Assembly (NCBI GenBank): GCA_003249555.1
Contig: QKIQ01000057.1
Span: forward strand, 124,001-188,000
Direction of reading: 5' to 3'
Length of the DNA stretch: 64,000 nucleotides
Origin: Clostridia bacterium
GTDB lineage: Bacteria > Bacillota > Clostridia > Christensenellales > SZUA-584
In this document: positions 481-55,679 of the stretch, piece by piece
Layout: each line of letters starts with the position of its first letter
How positions within the stretch are numbered: the first letter of the stretch is position 1
Program-made: the position numbers and the translations under genes
Notes under the pieces: generated by a model
The model's database searches: none
The model's input: the letters and a program-made list of their open reading frames with translations, nothing else
What the model was told of the DNA's origin: nothing

Positions 481-1530
481 CTAACCCACTGCGTTCATGA
501 TGCGGGTGACGGGCAGTATCACAGAGATAAGTACGATGCCGATGATGACGGACAGCACGATAATCAGGGCGGGCTCCAGCACTGTGGTCAGCCGTGTCAG
601 CCGCTCGTCGAGTTCTTCCTCCATCACGTCCGCGGCCCTGTCCAGCATATCGTCTGTATGGCCTGTGCTTTCCGCGACGGCGAGTATGCGCAGCAGCAAG
701 CCCGGGAACAGCCCGAGAGAGAGCAGCGCCTGCTTCAATGTACTGCCTTGTTCAATGCTGTCTGCGGCCTTATCAATGATCGCCTTGATGCGCGCGTTCA
801 TAACCAAGCTGCCCGTCATACGAACGCCCTGCGCAAGCCCGATGCCGCTGCGGATCAGCATGGCGAGTGTACGTGCAAAACGTACCGCCGCTGTGTTTTT
901 CACAATGCCGCGCTGAATGGGCATTTTCAGCTTGAACCCGTCCAGCTTTTCGCGGCCTTGTCTGGTCTGGCGCATGATAATCACAGCGATCACGGCGAGC
1001 GCGATCACGGCGATAATAATGTATAAGTAAGTACTGATAAAGCGGCCGATGTTCATCAGCGCGCGTGTGATGCCCGGCATGTCGCCGCCGACTGACGAGA
1101 GCACCTCGTCGAACATGGGCATCACCTCTGTGAGCAGCAATATAATGACGCCCAGCATGAGAACGGTGAGTATGACAGGGTATGTGACGGCCTGCATGAC
1201 CTTGGCTGATATTTTCGCGTCCTTGTCGTAAGAATCGGCCACGCGGATTAAGACCTTTTCCAAATTACCGCTTTGCTCGCCGATGCGGATTGTCTGAATA
1301 TAAAAATCGGGCAACACTTTGTTTTCTTTGGCAAAAGCTTCGGAAAGTGAATCTCCATCGTTCAGCCGTGTTTCCACGCGCGATAAAAGCCCCTTCACAG
1401 TTTTGGACTTGGTTTGTTGCGCAATCAGCTCAAGGCCTTCCTGCATTGAAAGGTCTGAATTTACGACGAGCGCTAGCTGCCGCGACATAGACGACAGATC
1501 GGTGCTTGAGAGCTCTTTGGCGATTTTCAT
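481..1530 (-). CDS. pilC: type II secretion/type IV pilus inner-membrane protein, GspF/PilC family
   Basis: This 349-residue protein has two GspF domains, near residues 12-140 and 205-335, each with the family's four-helix cytoplasmic bundle, and three hydrophobic segments (about 118-138, 165-185 and 318-340). PilC is the polytopic platform that couples the cytoplasmic ATPase to pilin assembly. It is somewhat shorter than typical PilC (about 400 residues) because the N-terminal extension is missing. The start ATG follows an AAAGGAG site. It lies 12 bases after pilT and before the pilin-like genes in one minus-strand operon. Confidence 0.85.
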   Translation of the reverse strand: MKIAKELSSTDLSSMSRQLALVVNSDLSMQEGLELIAQQTKSKTVKGLLSRVETRLNDGDSLSEAFAKENKVLPDFYIQTIRIGEQSGNLEKVLIRVADSYDKDAKISAKVMQAVTYPVILTVLMLGVIILLLTEVMPMFDEVLSSVGGDMPGITRALMNIGRFISTYLYIIIAVIALAVIAVIIMRQTRQGREKLDGFKLKMPIQRGIVKNTAAVRFARTLAMLIRSGIGLAQGVRMTGSLVMNARIKAIIDKAADSIEQGSTLKQALLSLGLFPGLLLRILAVAESTGHTDDMLDRAADVMEEELDERLTRLTTVLEPALIIVLSVIIGIVLISVILPVTRIMNAVG

Positions 1531-1542
1531 GTATTTTCTCCT

Positions 1543-2622
1543 TTATCGCTTCGCAATCGCCAAATACTGCTCGAACAGCTTGGCATCCTGCGCCTTAATC
1601 TTGGCGACTTTTTCATCGACGATATCCTTGGCGACCAGCTCGGCCAGATTTCTTTCAAGCGAGCTCATGCCCTGATCCTTGCCGGTTTGTATGATGTTGC
1701 TAATCTGATAGTGCTTACTGTCGCGGATGAGATTGCGTACGGCGGGCGTGGCCACCATCACTTCGCACGCGGCTACAAGTCCCTTGCCGTCTTTGCGGGG
1801 CAGCAGCAGCTGAGACACGATGCCTTCCAGCACTGTTGCCAGCTGGCTTCTCACCTGGTTCTGCTGATCCGTCGAGAACGAATCCAGTATGCGGTCGATG
1901 GTTTTCACAGCGCCCACGGTGTGCAGTGTGGAAAACACGAGATGCCCCGTTTCTGCGGCGGTTAGTGCAATCCCCATCGTTTCCTGATCGCGCATTTCGC
2001 CCACCATGATCACATCCGGATCCTGCCGCAGTGCGGAGCGCAACGCAGACGCAAACGATTCCGCGTCTTCGCCGATCTCCCGTTGGGTGACAAGGCTTTT
2101 GCCGTGGCTGTGCAGATATTCCACCGGGTCTTCGATGGTGAGGATATGATATGGATATTCGTTGTTAATGATATCGATAAGACTTGCGAGTGTGGTGGAC
2201 TTGCCGCACCCCGTTGCGCCTGTCAGCAACACAAGCCCGTTTGTTTTCTTGGGAAACCGCAGAATGGTATCGGGCAGGCCGAGTGACGCAAAAGGCGGGA
2301 TGTTGGGCGGCAGCATGCGCACTGCCATGGCGTACGTGCCACGCTGTTTGTATATGTTGCAACGAAACCGCCCGAAGCCGCGTATGGAATACGAAAAATC
2401 CAGCACGTTCTTCTCGTCAAGCAGCCGTTTTTTCTTATCGTCGTCGAGGCATTGTTCAACGATCGCGGCGGCGTTGTCGGGGGAGAGGACGCTTGTTCCG
2501 GGCACTGTTTGCAGCTTTGCATTGACGCGCATCAGCGGATAAGACCCCACGCAGATGTGCAAATCTGTCGCGTTATGTTTTTTAGATTCTTCGAGCAGGT
2601 CGTTTAGCTGTAAGCTTTGCAT
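1543..2622 (-). CDS. pilT: type IV pilus retraction ATPase, PilT family
   Basis: PilT is the hexameric secretion-type ATPase that powers pilus disassembly and twitching. The Walker A motif GATGCGKSTT lies near residue 134, followed by the Asp box, the Walker B region DPDVIMVGEMRD and the His box HLVFSTLHT; length (about 360) is normal. ATG at 2622 is preferred over 2631 because GGCGGA sits at the right distance upstream of it. It is the first gene of the pilus operon visible here. No extension ATPase (PilB) is in the window; it could lie beyond base 1 or elsewhere. Confidence 0.9.
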   Translation of the reverse strand: MQSLQLNDLLEESKKHNATDLHICVGSYPLMRVNAKLQTVPGTSVLSPDNAAAIVEQCLDDDKKKRLLDEKNVLDFSYSIRGFGRFRCNIYKQRGTYAMAVRMLPPNIPPFASLGLPDTILRFPKKTNGLVLLTGATGCGKSTTLASLIDIINNEYPYHILTIEDPVEYLHSHGKSLVTQREIGEDAESFASALRSALRQDPDVIMVGEMRDQETMGIALTAAETGHLVFSTLHTVGAVKTIDRILDSFSTDQQNQVRSQLATVLEGIVSQLLLPRKDGKGLVAACEVMVATPAVRNLIRDSKHYQISNIIQTGKDQGMSSLERNLAELVAKDIVDEKVAKIKAQDAKLFEQYLAIAKR

Positions 2623-2734
2623 AGAGCGCATTCCGCCTTTGTTAATATCTGTGGCAAGTTAAAAACCACCGTTTTACATATAAACAGCAATTGCTTGTCA
2701 TAATCGTTGAATTATAAAAATTGGCAAAAAGAAA

Positions 2735-3220
2735 TCAGATATGGTGAGCTTCGAGCCATAACAGATAGTTTTTGATATCAAGGCCGCCGCGGTATGCGTC
2801 GGCATTTGCCGACTTGTGCACCACGCGGTGGCAGGGGATCAGCAGCGGCAATTGATTCATTTTCATGGCAGTGCCCACGGCGCGCATGGCGAGCGGATAT
2901 CCGGCGGCCAGCGCCACTGCTGAATACGATGCGGTGCTTCCGTACGGGATATCGATCACGGCGTGGTATACATTTTGCCGAAAAGGCGTGCCTGGGACGA
3001 TCATGGGCAGAGAGAAGCCGCGACGCTTGCCCGTGAAATATTCTTTGATCTGTGCGGAAAACGCAAGGGTGTTATCAAAGACGGAAAATGGGCAAGGCTC
3101 GTCTGGAAACAGCACACGACAAATCACGCCGTTTTCATACAGCGCGGTAAAAGCGCCGAGAGGTGTATCCGCGCGGCATGCAATGCGCATTATCATGCTT
3201 TCGGGATTTTTCAGATTCAT
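2735..3220 (-). CDS. ogt: methylated-DNA-[protein]-cysteine S-methyltransferase
   Basis: The enzyme removes O6-alkyl groups from guanine by transferring them to its own cysteine, a one-turnover repair reaction. The diagnostic motif PCHRVV with the acceptor cysteine is present in the C-terminal third, preceded by the DNA-binding helix region (YGSTASYSAVALAAGYP) and followed by a YRGGLDIKNYLLWLE tail typical of the family. The start at 3220 is chosen because AGGCGG lies six bases upstream; an in-frame ATG at 3250 has no good site. The 161-residue size fits Ogt. It is a stand-alone gene between the pilus operon and the cupin gene. Confidence 0.92.
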   Translation of the reverse strand: MNLKNPESMIMRIACRADTPLGAFTALYENGVICRVLFPDEPCPFSVFDNTLAFSAQIKEYFTGKRRGFSLPMIVPGTPFRQNVYHAVIDIPYGSTASYSAVALAAGYPLAMRAVGTAMKMNQLPLLIPCHRVVHKSANADAYRGGLDIKNYLLWLEAHHI

Positions 3221-3415
3221 ATCATACCGCCTGTCATGCTTTGCAAACATATATTATCATTGAGATGAAGAGGAGACAATAAGAGGGTTGTTTGTCATTC
3301 GATTAAACGGTTTTTCTTGGCTGGAGTTTTGACAAAGATCAATAAATGATACAGCGTATTATGAGAATGGCTGTCCGTTTTTGGACAGCCACGAAGGTGA
3401 TACAAACCCTGTTTA

Positions 3416-3754
3416 TTATTCTTTCGGGAACACCACGACAAGCAGCATCTTAAACGGCGCCGGCGCTTGTACGGCATGTGGTATGCCTGCGGGCATGACG
3501 ATGGTTTGTCCGCCAGTGAGCGAATGCACTTTATCACCGATGGTGACGGACGCGCTGCCGTCGAGTATGTACACGAGCGCGTCGCCCTTGGATTCATGTG
3601 CGCTGATCTCCTCGTCTGCATCGAATGCGAACAGCGTGATGCTTACGGCGTTGTTTTGTACAAGAGTGCGGCTTACGATCTGACCCGGTTGATACGAGAC
3701 AAGCTCTGCCATGCTAAGGACTGTTTCCAGATCGATGTTTTTGAGAATCTTCAT
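3416..3754 (-). CDS. cupin-domain protein
   Basis: A 112-residue single-domain cupin. The first conserved cupin motif is seen as EISAHESKGDALVYILDG and the second as the run from GGQTIVMPAGIPHAV, with histidines positioned to bind a metal. Such small cupins are often dioxygenases, isomerases or ligand-binding stress proteins; substrate cannot be told from the sequence. It is preceded by AAAGGGG at a workable distance and lies downstream of the eroded DUF438 gene on the same strand, with about 20 bases between, so the two may once have shared a transcript. Confidence 0.8.
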   Translation of the reverse strand: MKILKNIDLETVLSMAELVSYQPGQIVSRTLVQNNAVSITLFAFDADEEISAHESKGDALVYILDGSASVTIGDKVHSLTGGQTIVMPAGIPHAVQAPAPFKMLLVVVFPKE

Positions 3755-8609: not shown

Positions 8610-8760
8610 AACTGCGAAAATTGAATATCCCTAATCTGCCGAAGACAACAGGTGCGGTTATCGCTTAATTTCCTGTCGAGGAGAGTTGATACGAAAAGAG
8701 ACCCTTTTTTGTGCGGCTTTCCCGTGCAAAAAGGGTTTTTTGGTTTTTAAGCAGCTTTGA
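8610..8760 (+). promoter_or_regulatory. ribosomal protein L10 leader with intrinsic terminator
   Basis: A 150-base untranslated leader sits between the promoter and rplJ. It ends in a long hairpin at 8699-8743, where ACCCTTTTTTGTGCGG pairs with CCGTGCAAAAAGGGT and is followed by a T run. This is the usual layout of the L10(L12)4-responsive leader in Bacillota, in which excess L10 complex stops transcription. Confidence 0.8.
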
Positions 8761-51066: not shown

Positions 51067-52437
51067 TTATTCAACACTCTTGATGTCGCCTCTCTCGGCC
51101 AGTTCACTCACAATTTTGTCATAAAACGCCTTGTCAAGCTTGAACTTGAAGCGGTATACGATGTATCCCGCGATGATGCAGATGAGCGGCAGTACGAACA
51201 TTGCGAGCTTCATCATGAGCAGCCCCTCGCTGGTGACATCCGCCGCGGAGTTTGCGCGGTTGATGCCCGAGATAATCAGCGTGACAGTCACGATGCCTGT
51301 GGCGATCGCGCCGCCGATCTTGTTGATAAGCGGCTGAATGGAAAGAGTGACGGCCTGATTGCGCTTGCCGGATTTCCACTGCCCGTATTCAATGGTATCC
51401 GCAAGGAACATGAGCATCAGCAGCTGGATAAAGGCATCGCCGATAAATATCAGCACACCGGCGATGCCGATGGGCAGCATGTTCATCGGAGAGAAGAAGA
51501 ACAGCGCATAGCCCGTAAGCACCAGTATAGTCGCGAAGAAATAGAGCTGCTTGCGCGAGAAACGCTTGCTGAAAAGCGGGAATACAACGAGCGCGCTTAG
51601 CTGAGATACGCCCAGCACAGCGGCAAATATCGAATACATTCCTTCGTCGCCGAATGCGTATTTAAAATAATATGTGCCAAAGCTCGTGGTCGTCATGTAT
51701 CCGATCAAGAACAGCGCCATGGAAATGGTGGTGAACAGCAGCTGGTCGTTTTTGAATATGGCCTTTGCCATGCCCTTGAGCGTTGTCTTTTCTTCCTCTT
51801 TAAATTTTGAACGGTGCTCCTTAACGCCGAAAAGCGTGAAGAGCTGAAAACCCACCATCAGCAGCGCGATAACCAGCGCGAACAGGAACCAAGCCTGCTC
51901 CATATTGTCAAGCGCGGCTCCCATGGCATTGGTAATCGGCAGTATGCCCACCACCACAACAAACAAGCCGATGTTGGCGCAGATTCTCGCGAAAGCGCCG
52001 ATTTTCTCGCGCTCTTTCTGATCCAGCGACAGCGCGGGCATCATCGACCAGTAGGCGATGTCGTTAAGACCATAGGTAATATCCCAGCTCAGGTAGAATA
52101 TCGTGAAGAAAACGATATACCCGACTGATGATAGCCCGAGGTCTGTAAACAGCAGCACCATGAATACGGCGCTGGTGAGCGCGCCCACCAAAATCCACGG
52201 CTTGTACTTGCCCCAGCGGGATTTGGTATTATCCACGATCAGGCCCATAATAGGGTCGTTAAGTGCGTCAAAGATTCTCATGAACGTGAGGATACCGCCC
52301 GTCCAAGCGAGCATTTGGTCAGACAAATCGAGTATCTCGGTTAAGAACCAGATCAGGTACATGCTGATCATCGAATAAAACATGTCGCGTCCGATTGTGC
52401 CGAGACCGAAGAAATATTTGTTTCGCCTGTTGGTCAT
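51067..52437 (-). CDS. GPH-family (glycoside-pentoside-hexuronide) cation symporter
   Basis: A 456-residue transporter with twelve hydrophobic segments, MelB/GPH type: the N-terminal RNKYFFGLGTIGRDMFYSMI, then FDALNDPIMGLIVDNTKSRWGK-type loop and the WDITYGLNDIAYWSMMPALS region. Imports beta-glucosides or related sugars with Na+ or H+. Start at 52437 follows GGAGG. It is second in the operon after the GH1 gene. Confidence 0.88.
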   Translation of the reverse strand: MTNRRNKYFFGLGTIGRDMFYSMISMYLIWFLTEILDLSDQMLAWTGGILTFMRIFDALNDPIMGLIVDNTKSRWGKYKPWILVGALTSAVFMVLLFTDLGLSSVGYIVFFTIFYLSWDITYGLNDIAYWSMMPALSLDQKEREKIGAFARICANIGLFVVVVGILPITNAMGAALDNMEQAWFLFALVIALLMVGFQLFTLFGVKEHRSKFKEEEKTTLKGMAKAIFKNDQLLFTTISMALFLIGYMTTTSFGTYYFKYAFGDEGMYSIFAAVLGVSQLSALVVFPLFSKRFSRKQLYFFATILVLTGYALFFFSPMNMLPIGIAGVLIFIGDAFIQLLMLMFLADTIEYGQWKSGKRNQAVTLSIQPLINKIGGAIATGIVTVTLIISGINRANSAADVTSEGLLMMKLAMFVLPLICIIAGYIVYRFKFKLDKAFYDKIVSELAERGDIKSVE

Positions 52438-52477
52438 ATCTTTTCCTCCGTTTGTTTTATAGAAAACAAAACGTTTA

Positions 52478-53764
52478 TCAGTCGTTTGTATTGTATGCCA
52501 TGTCGCAGTACACGTCATACATCTCCTGCGAAACGCCACGGGCTTCGATCATCTTGGCAAAAAATTCGCCGCTGCGTTTAACGGTTCGCTGCTGTGTCGC
52601 AAAATCCACGTGCACAATGCCAAACCGTGCCGTAAAGCCTTCCACCCACTCAAAGTTGTCCGCGAAACACCAATGATAATACCGCTGCACGGGCAGGCCG
52701 CTTTCGCAGAGCGCTTTGAGATGTTCGTAAATATAGCGGCTCCGAAACGTATCTTTTTTGTCGCAGGTGCCGTTTTCCGTGATGTATATGGGCAGCGGCG
52801 CAAGCGCATACAAATCGCGCGCATTTTGCACGATGCCCTCGGGGTAGATCTCCCAACCGAGATCGTTGATGGGCACGCCATCCATAAAGCCGCTGGCAAA
52901 GCCGGACACGGCTGTGCGGCTGTAGTAGTTGATGGCATGGAAATCGCAGAAAAGACCGCTGTCAGCGCCTTTGATGCGTCTTAACGGGAAACAGCCCTTG
53001 CCGGTTAAGTACGTTTTGGACAGGGAAGACTGGAACATCCGCTCCATCACGGGTGTGCAGATGCGGTGCCAGATCTTTTTGGGATTCTTGGGTGCAAACA
53101 CGCGCATATGGTGCGCGTAGCTCACCTTGGTATCGTCAAAGCCCATTTCTTTACGCAGCCTGTGTATCAGCGTGTACGCTTTCACATGGCATTCGCCCAT
53201 GTGATTGTGTACGCGCAGTGTCAGCATCAGAGACTTTTTACCGGGCGGCCATATGCCGAAAAAATAGCCGCTCGTCGCGTAAACGTTGGGTTCGTTGATC
53301 GTGATATATTCGCTGACGAGGTCACCAAAAGCGCGCACGACTTTTTTCACAAAGCGCAGATAGATATTGACGCATTTTTTGTTTTTGAACGCGCCCATTT
53401 TCTCAAACCAGAGCGGATTCGTAAAATGATGAATGGTGAGCAAAGGTGTGATGCCAAGCTTTTTTAACAACAGCAGTTCCTTGCGATAATGCATGAACTC
53501 GGTTTCGTCGAAAACGCCGTTTTTAGGCTCCAACCGCGCCCACTCGATGCCGAGCCGGTAGTGGCGGATGCCCATATCGCTCATGAGTTGTGTATCTTCT
53601 TCATAGCGCTCGTAATGCATGGTGGCAACGGATGGGTCGGCATTTTCTTTAATGTGGCCTTTTCTGTACCAGTCGTACCAGCTGTTATGCTTGTTGCCGC
53701 CCTCAATCTGTGTGGCCGCGGATGCCACCCCAATCTGCATTCCTTCCAAAAGCTTAAAAGACAT
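52478..53764 (-). CDS. glycoside hydrolase family 1 beta-glucosidase
   Basis: A 428-residue GH1 enzyme. The acid/base glutamate lies in YITINEPNVYA and the nucleophile glutamate in IYITENGTCDK. The N-terminal IGVASAATQIEGGNKHNSWY and the end FGIVHVDFATQQRTVKRSGE are typical. The lack of a signal peptide suggests action on imported glucosides, phosphorylated or not; a phospho-specific Lys-Ser signature was not established. It heads a two-gene operon with the symporter. Confidence 0.9.
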   Translation of the reverse strand: MSFKLLEGMQIGVASAATQIEGGNKHNSWYDWYRKGHIKENADPSVATMHYERYEEDTQLMSDMGIRHYRLGIEWARLEPKNGVFDETEFMHYRKELLLLKKLGITPLLTIHHFTNPLWFEKMGAFKNKKCVNIYLRFVKKVVRAFGDLVSEYITINEPNVYATSGYFFGIWPPGKKSLMLTLRVHNHMGECHVKAYTLIHRLRKEMGFDDTKVSYAHHMRVFAPKNPKKIWHRICTPVMERMFQSSLSKTYLTGKGCFPLRRIKGADSGLFCDFHAINYYSRTAVSGFASGFMDGVPINDLGWEIYPEGIVQNARDLYALAPLPIYITENGTCDKKDTFRSRYIYEHLKALCESGLPVQRYYHWCFADNFEWVEGFTARFGIVHVDFATQQRTVKRSGEFFAKMIEARGVSQEMYDVYCDMAYNTND

Positions 53765-54197: not shown

Positions 54198-55466
54198 TTA
54201 AGAAGCTTTCGTTGTGTCTGCCAATCCGCATTGCCTGCTTGGAGCCGGCTTTTCGATATGCCTGACTTCATTAAGTGCGGTTTCATCCTTGTATTGGAAT
54301 TTCAAAAGTATGGGTGTCAGCAGACTTGTCGCGATAACAAGAATGATAATGGGTGTTAACAGATCCGCACTCATGAGTCCCGCGGATACGCCTCTGTCTG
54401 CCACGATCAGTGCCACCTCGCCGCGCGCGACCATGCCGGTGCCGATACGCAGTGCGTCTTTGTTGGAAAAGCCGCACATTTTCGCGCCGAACCCGCAGCC
54501 GCCCATTTTTGTAATGACCGCTACGGCAAGCAGCGCTGAAGCGAACAATATCATATGCAGATCAATCTGCCCCACTGTAGCTTTTATGCCGATGCTTGCA
54601 AAAAACATCGGAGAGAGAAGCATATATGACGTGACTTCGACTTTTTCTGTGACGTATTCCGAAAGTGTGGTGTTGCAAAGAGAAATGTTTGAAATAATAA
54701 TGCCTGCCATATATGCACCTGTGATGTCTGCCACACCGAAGATTTTTTCAGCGCCGTAAGCCATCAGCAAGCAAAATACGAAGCTGTATATCGGCATGCG
54801 CCTTCTCTTTTTTTCGTGTCTTTGGCAGATCTTTTTGAACATATAATTCGCGCCCAAGCCCACCACAACAGCGGCAACAAAGAACAGCAATATTTTAAGC
54901 ATTACCTGAATCACACTAACGGATGCATCGCCAAAGCTGATGAGCATTGTCAGTATAATGATGCCGATGATGTCGTCGATGATGGCTGCGCCAAGTATCG
55001 CTGTGCCGGTCTTGGTTTTCAGCTTGCCCATTTCGCGAAGCGCTTCAACCGTGATACTCACCGATGTGGCCGTCAGAATTACGCCGATAAAAATGTTCTT
55101 GAACAATTCGACCTGGGACATCTGCGCCATGTTCTGATAATATATGCCGGCAACCAGAAAACCGCCTCCGAGTGGCAGAAGAATACCCAAAAGTGCGATG
55201 ACGATAGACGCTTTGCCTGTGCTTTTGAGCTGCTTAATATCTGTTTCCATGCCCGCTGTAAACATAATCACGATAACGCCGAGCTCTGACATTTTGTCGA
55301 TGAATTCGGATTCATGAACGAGATTCAAAAGGGTGGGCCCAAGGATTAATCCGGCGATAAGGGCACCCACAACCTGCGGGAGGTGCAGCTTTTTTGCAAG
55401 CACACCAAATAGCTTCGTTGCCAGCAAAATGATGGCAAGATCTAAAAAGAAGTCGTAAGATAACAT
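54198..55466 (-). CDS. Kef-type cation:proton antiporter (CPA2)
   Basis: A 422-residue protein with about twelve hydrophobic segments. The opening FFLDLAIILLATKLFGVLAK and the VVGALIAGLILGPTLLNLV loop, with the later GAAIIDDIIGIIILTMLISF motif (two Asp in the membrane core), are those of Na+ or K+/H+ exchangers. No C-terminal TrkA-N domain is present. Start at 55466 follows GAGGAG; a longer frame to 55601 would read through the leader. Ion not assignable from sequence alone. Confidence 0.88.
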   Translation of the reverse strand: MLSYDFFLDLAIILLATKLFGVLAKKLHLPQVVGALIAGLILGPTLLNLVHESEFIDKMSELGVIVIMFTAGMETDIKQLKSTGKASIVIALLGILLPLGGGFLVAGIYYQNMAQMSQVELFKNIFIGVILTATSVSITVEALREMGKLKTKTGTAILGAAIIDDIIGIIILTMLISFGDASVSVIQVMLKILLFFVAAVVVGLGANYMFKKICQRHEKKRRRMPIYSFVFCLLMAYGAEKIFGVADITGAYMAGIIISNISLCNTTLSEYVTEKVEVTSYMLLSPMFFASIGIKATVGQIDLHMILFASALLAVAVITKMGGCGFGAKMCGFSNKDALRIGTGMVARGEVALIVADRGVSAGLMSADLLTPIIILVIATSLLTPILLKFQYKDETALNEVRHIEKPAPSRQCGLADTTKAS

Positions 55467-55644
55467 TTGAATGCTCCTCTTAAATTTTCTAAACATAAAA
55501 GGGTTTAAACCATGCGGCCTAAACCCTTGCATATACTTTTTCGCCGAAAAGTTTCTTTGATACCAGTTAACCTGTCTGTCAAATTTCGTCTTCCGCTGCA
55601 ATTTCAGTTTAGCTCTGTTAGCCGCCTATTATGAAAAACATACG
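55467..55644 (-). promoter_or_regulatory. structured leader of antiporter, candidate riboswitch
   Basis: A 178-base untranslated leader on the minus strand. A long-range pair (GCGGC-TAA at 55618-55625 with TTTAGGCCGC at 55514-55523) would close a multi-stem core, and its 3' arm overlaps the 5' arm of an intrinsic terminator (AAGGGTTTA with TAAACCCTT and a T run, 55497-55528). The two folds exclude each other, the usual riboswitch layout. The aptamer class was not identified. Confidence 0.6.
55497..55528 (-). terminator. leader terminator ahead of antiporter
   Basis: AAGGGTTTA and TTTAAACCCTT arms with TTTTATGTTT downstream, 31 bases before the antiporter start. Confidence 0.75.
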
Positions 55645-55650
55645 GTGCTT

Positions 55651-55679
55651 ATTATAGTACTCGAAATTATGCATGTCAA
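55651..55679 (-). promoter_or_regulatory. consensus promoter of the antiporter
   Basis: On the minus strand TTGACA (55679-55674), a 17-base spacer and TATAAT (55656-55651): a perfect sigma-A consensus. Confidence 0.9.

Follow-up and report, generated by a model that had tools for sequence, protein, structure and literature searches.

The stretch of DNA analysed here (64 kb; the window) carries on its minus strand a gene for a Na+/H+ antiporter of the CPA2 family, preceded by a promoter and an untranslated leader (Table 1). Na_H_Exchanger is the sole Pfam domain of the protein. The nearest solved structures were those of Thermus NapA (4bwz, 5bz2 and 5bz3), with KefC ranking far behind, and the DD motif of NapA was kept, with IIDDIIG aligning with VIDDVLG of TtNapA. 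A C-terminal RCK/TrkA-N domain was absent from the 422-aa protein, and the KefC/KefB models scored far below their cut-offs. Thus, judged from its sequence, the gene product belongs with the NapA-like Na+/H+ antiporters and lacks an RCK domain; it is not the Kef-type antiporter of the original prediction. It was the only antiporter of this family in the assembly. Downstream of it, on the same strand, lie a GH1 glycosidase gene and then a gene for a GPH-family sugar:cation symporter (51067-53764). Elsewhere in the window, an L10 ribosomal protein leader (RF00557) was found at 8621-8750.

The promoter upstream of the antiporter gene (TTGACA-17-TATAAT, 55679-55651) matched the consensus at 12/12 positions, and it was the sole perfect promoter in the window when both strands were scanned with spacings of 15-19. 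From the promoter spacing, transcription would start near 55644, which places approximately 178 nt ahead of the ATG at 55466. Both the perfect promoter and the 178-base leader had been predicted, and both were recovered here. The leader contains an intrinsic terminator, AAGGGTTTAGGCCGCATGGTTTAAACCCTT followed by TTATGTTTAG, with a folding energy of -17.3 kcal/mol and at a distance of ~32-33 nt from the ATG. Because only 32 nt separate the terminator from the ATG, there is no room for a separate promoter of the antiporter gene. The whole leader folded better than shuffled sequences (z -2.6); when the 3' arm of the terminator was removed, the advantage over shuffles was less clear (z -1.6). At equilibrium, the full-length RNA favoured the terminator.

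Table 1. Features of the antiporter gene and its leader in the window (minus strand; TSS, transcription start site)
Feature	Position	Strand	Basis or remark
-35 box TTGACA	55674..55679	-	Half of the 12/12 promoter match
-10 box TATAAT	55651..55656	-	Flanking GAGTACTATAATAANCACCGT common to the second copy
Leader RNA	55467..55644	-	Inferred TSS (~55644) to the base preceding ATG 55466
5' antiterminator arm GGCGGCUA (putative)	55619..55626	-	Second copy identical at 8/8 positions; GCGGC forms pairs with GCCGC (55514-55518)
Second antiterminator segment CUAAACU (putative)	55606..55612	-	Pairs with 55519-55525; kept only partly in the second copy
Leader centre	55529..55596	-	Folds in the window copy (p 0.016); neither similar to the second copy nor sharing a helix with it
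Intrinsic terminator stem-loop, 13 pairs, then TTATGTTTAG	55499..55528	-	Fold
GCCGC of the terminator (5' arm and loop), pairing target of GGCGGCUA	55514..55518	-	Identical in both copies
Shine-Dalgarno AGAGGAG	55474..55480	-	Sequence
CPA2 Na+/H+ antiporter, NapA-like, 422 aa	54198..55466	-	PF00999, E 4e-68; TtNapA 4bwz, E 8e-46

The upstream bases 55626-55606 were complementary to the 5' arm and loop of the terminator. The closing stem consists of GCGGC (55625-55621) and GCCGC (55518-55514). It can be extended by CUAA/UUAG over one bulged G, as first drawn, or alternatively by CUAAACU (55612-55606) pairing with 55519-55525. With either extension the closing stem shares bases with the 5' arm of the terminator, so this element of the original prediction stands. 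When the transcript of the window leader was cut off short of the terminator's 3' arm, GCGGC paired with the 5' arm of the terminator at a probability of at least 0.96. When the upstream leader was shuffled with dinucleotides preserved, 5.4% of the shuffles paired with the terminator at least as well (p 0.054), a borderline value that is therefore not strong evidence by itself.

The only real relative of the leader was found by BLAST in the same genome, on contig C28 (positions 3270-3486; E 2e-9 and 1e-5). When the two copies were compared segment by segment, similarity was high in the promoter and start region (z 8.1), in the 5' leader as far as GCUNAACUGA (z 6.1) and in the terminator (z 9.4), whereas the centre of ~70 nt was no closer than shuffled sequence (z -0.5). 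The arm GGCGGCUA (8/8) and its target GCCGC (5/5), which lies partly in the terminator loop, were identical between the copies. In each copy, the terminator arm had its best partner in the homologous place, and a single base change in the pairing preserved it (U-G in the window copy, U-A in the second). A comparison of the two copies detected no two-sided covariation in the closing stem. In a truncated transcript of the second copy, the CGGCU pairing reached a probability of 0.85-0.97; against shuffles, the arm-terminator pairing of this copy gave p 0.19. A common internal hairpin in the two centres was not above chance (p 0.56). We set aside a hairpin GCGGAAGA/ACAAAAGA at the start of both centres, which appeared compensatory by eye, because such helices are expected by chance at that level.

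Contig C28 ends at the terminator, and the gene behind the second copy is therefore missing. The contig also carries a ferredoxin gene and a fragment of a phage terminase large subunit (1-1033 of locus L131), and thus may border a prophage. Note that both copies come from one metagenome-assembled genome with ~93% completeness and 5.6% contamination, and the second copy could therefore stem from another strain or organism.

The search for further relatives covered 396 sampled genomes of the order by BLAST, and 297 genomes of the order and 391 of the class with the covariance model R1. No third copy was found in any of these samples, and scans of plasmids and viral contigs also found nothing. 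Weak R1 matches in two genomes (G271 and G226) and a BLAST match in another (G003) proved to be the ends of coding genes plus ordinary terminators. R1 was also run on 82 loci with homologous antiporters, which were mostly from Clostridia. The original prediction had proposed a comparison with the leaders of related antiporter genes; in the approximately 80 loci examined, there was no relative of the leader. The closest homologs (61-62% identity; L002 and L061) were preceded by different sequence without such a leader. Further, terminators ahead of the homologous antiporters were found in 38/79 cases on the sense strand versus 27/79 on the antisense strand, an excess that is not convincing.

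Some of these loci, and one from a relative of the same family, have features of their own upstream of the gene. The antiporter genes of Gottfriedia/Bacillus (L118, L120, L121, L123, L128 and L129; ~2905-2970) possess a conserved intrinsic terminator, CCTGTCACGAT..GTGGCAGG followed by T7, between a promoter-like site and the Shine-Dalgarno sequence; in L123, an A-T pair of this terminator is replaced by T-A, apparently as a compensatory change. This leader resembles that of the window in having an intrinsic terminator just before the Shine-Dalgarno sequence of a homologous antiporter, but it is shorter and unrelated in sequence, and its R1 match was not above chance. It is a candidate for a second, unrelated attenuator. 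In homologs of Oscillospiraceae/Lawsonibacter (L083, L089, L103, L108 and L122), an 11/12 promoter is followed by a GC-rich hairpin 4-8 nt past the -10 box, at the expected start of the transcript. In a genome of the same family (G004; L146, 1500-1800), a strong promoter and a short terminator-bearing leader of unrelated sequence precede a small membrane protein gene.

In Clostridia, the Na+-I riboswitch (DUF1646 motif, RF03071) governs termination before antiporter genes that are annotated as kefB but are napA-like; these genes, too, match napA better (PMC9337991). Na+-I is therefore the natural candidate class for the leader studied here. However, the RF03071 model found no match in the leader copies or anywhere in this genome, and the two copies share no aptamer core. 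The control for this model was positive in Lactococcus, and one member of the family was found in a relative of the same order (G022). In that relative, the Na+-I match (L183, ~1500-3006) is followed by a small membrane protein gene and by a gene for the predicted beta subunit of a sodium-pump decarboxylase. The c-di-AMP class (RF00379) likewise had no match in the leader or in this genome, and its two controls were positive. For the Li+ riboswitches (nhaA-I and nhaA-II motifs), the scan of the whole of Rfam 15 gave no match, a result that holds if the library includes both motifs. At the gathering level and at E<=10 with permissive filters, neither copy matched any of the 4227 families of Rfam 15 beyond noise. 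A match to sucA overlapped the Shine-Dalgarno sequence and the terminator and was rejected at 15 bits versus a cut-off of 40. Further, Rfam scans of 60 homologous antiporter loci revealed no ion riboswitches. The original prediction could assign the leader to no known class, as was the case here, and none of the classes that it put forward (ydaO, Na+-I and Li+) was found in either copy.

In the attenuators of Firmicutes that depend on BglG/LicT RAT sequences, PyrR or T-boxes, the 5' arm of an intrinsic terminator overlaps with a segment lying upstream of it, and transcription terminates by default. The layout of the window leader is similar in both respects. It differs in that it matches no T-box or other Rfam leader and holds no RAT-like or PyrR-like motif that we could recognise by eye. 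Leader peptides were also considered. The peptide AUGUUUUUCAUAAUAGGCGGCUAA near the 5' end lacks a Shine-Dalgarno sequence and has lost its start codon in the second copy, where the open frame that begins with the TTG at 55601 is closed as well; both were rejected.

The computed features of the leader are a promoter followed by an intrinsic terminator before the start codon, an alternative pairing that uses the 5' arm of this terminator, and the conservation of these pieces alone in the second copy. On balance, they suggest that the element is probably a cis-acting transcription attenuator of the terminator/antiterminator type. The centre was free to diverge while both ends were kept, and therefore what is under selection seems to be whether the antiterminator or the terminator forms, in association with a particular promoter. 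The strong promoter would yield a leader of ~178 nt that, by default, would stop at the intrinsic terminator as an RNA of ~150 nt, and the antiporter gene would be reached by read-through only. Termination would be blocked when the conserved 5' segment (GGCGGCUA, then GCUNAACUGA) pairs with the terminator in its 5' arm and loop. The two pairings may compete in the cell, with read-through being regulated. The trigger would then act on the conserved promoter-proximal segment, not on a large central aptamer, and might be an RNA-binding protein, pausing of RNA polymerase or a small ligand. The nature of the gene makes Na+ or alkaline stress the obvious signal to consider first.

Without any regulation, the same arrangement could be no more than a strong promoter and a leaky terminator, which together set a fixed low level of the antiporter, the 5' complementarity being due to chance and the 5' region being kept for promoter-proximal or RNA-stability reasons. 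This agrees with the modest excess of the arm-terminator duplex over shuffles in the two copies (p 0.054 and 0.19) and with the persistence of the terminator in the full-length fold. It does not account for the identity of GGCGGCUA and GCCGC in copies whose centres have fully diverged, and we regard it as unlikely, at roughly one chance in a handful. A gene for a small RNA in two paralogous copies, with a conserved 5' seed, a variable middle and an intrinsic terminator, would likewise explain why both copies possess a strong promoter, a conserved 5' end, a variable centre and a terminator with a U tract, and no gene is visible behind the second copy, where the contig ends. The antiporter would then be expressed by incidental read-through; however, it has a good Shine-Dalgarno sequence and an ATG ~33 nt past the terminator, where its own promoter is impossible for space, and the complement of the conserved arm lies in the terminator of the same leader. 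This explanation is somewhat less probable still.

The original prediction was of an ON riboswitch. Its terminator/antiterminator layout is upheld by the second copy, in which promoter, 5' arm and terminator are all retained, but the riboswitch itself is not. An aptamer in the leader is unsupported: no conserved structured aptamer emerged from the two copies, given the divergence of the centre (z -0.5), the chance level of the shared hairpin (p 0.56), the lack of Rfam matches and the lack of such leaders at homologous genes. Known riboswitch classes have many members and conserved cores, and the search of other antiporter genes and of the remaining sampled genomes yielded no relatives of this leader. 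A new class of ON switch for an ion or small molecule, whose aptamer would comprise the conserved 5' segment together with the closing stem, is therefore improbable, although its geometry is compatible with the leader, the centre of the window copy folds better than shuffles (p 0.016), and a different class of Na+ riboswitch is found in Clostridia ahead of napA-like genes that are annotated as kefB (PMC9337991). A classical riboswitch is thus the less likely reading; a compact one is possible, two copies being few. We give an equally small chance to a very narrowly distributed new class of RNA switch, represented at least twice in one genome, in which a promoter-proximal sensor of ~50 nt would double as the antiterminator and control the NapA antiporter and one further gene. 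That the leader is a divergent form of one of the known ion classes (Na+-I, Li+-I/II or c-di-AMP) is suggested by the gene context only and is very improbable. This possibility is largely refuted by the searches of both copies at E<=10 with permissive filters, which gave nothing beyond noise, and by the absence of RF03071 and RF00379 from the genome with working controls.

A transcription attenuator thus remains our preferred reading of the leader. The locus also calls for caution, in that a convincing fold before an ion transporter need not hold an aptamer; here, the part that would have been the aptamer diverged freely. NapA-type antiporters are sometimes under the control of Na+ riboswitches, and here a gene of the same sort is preceded by an unrelated leader with a comparable terminator layout and a second copy. 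If this leader is regulated, it would represent another, independent coupling of antiporter expression to a cell signal.
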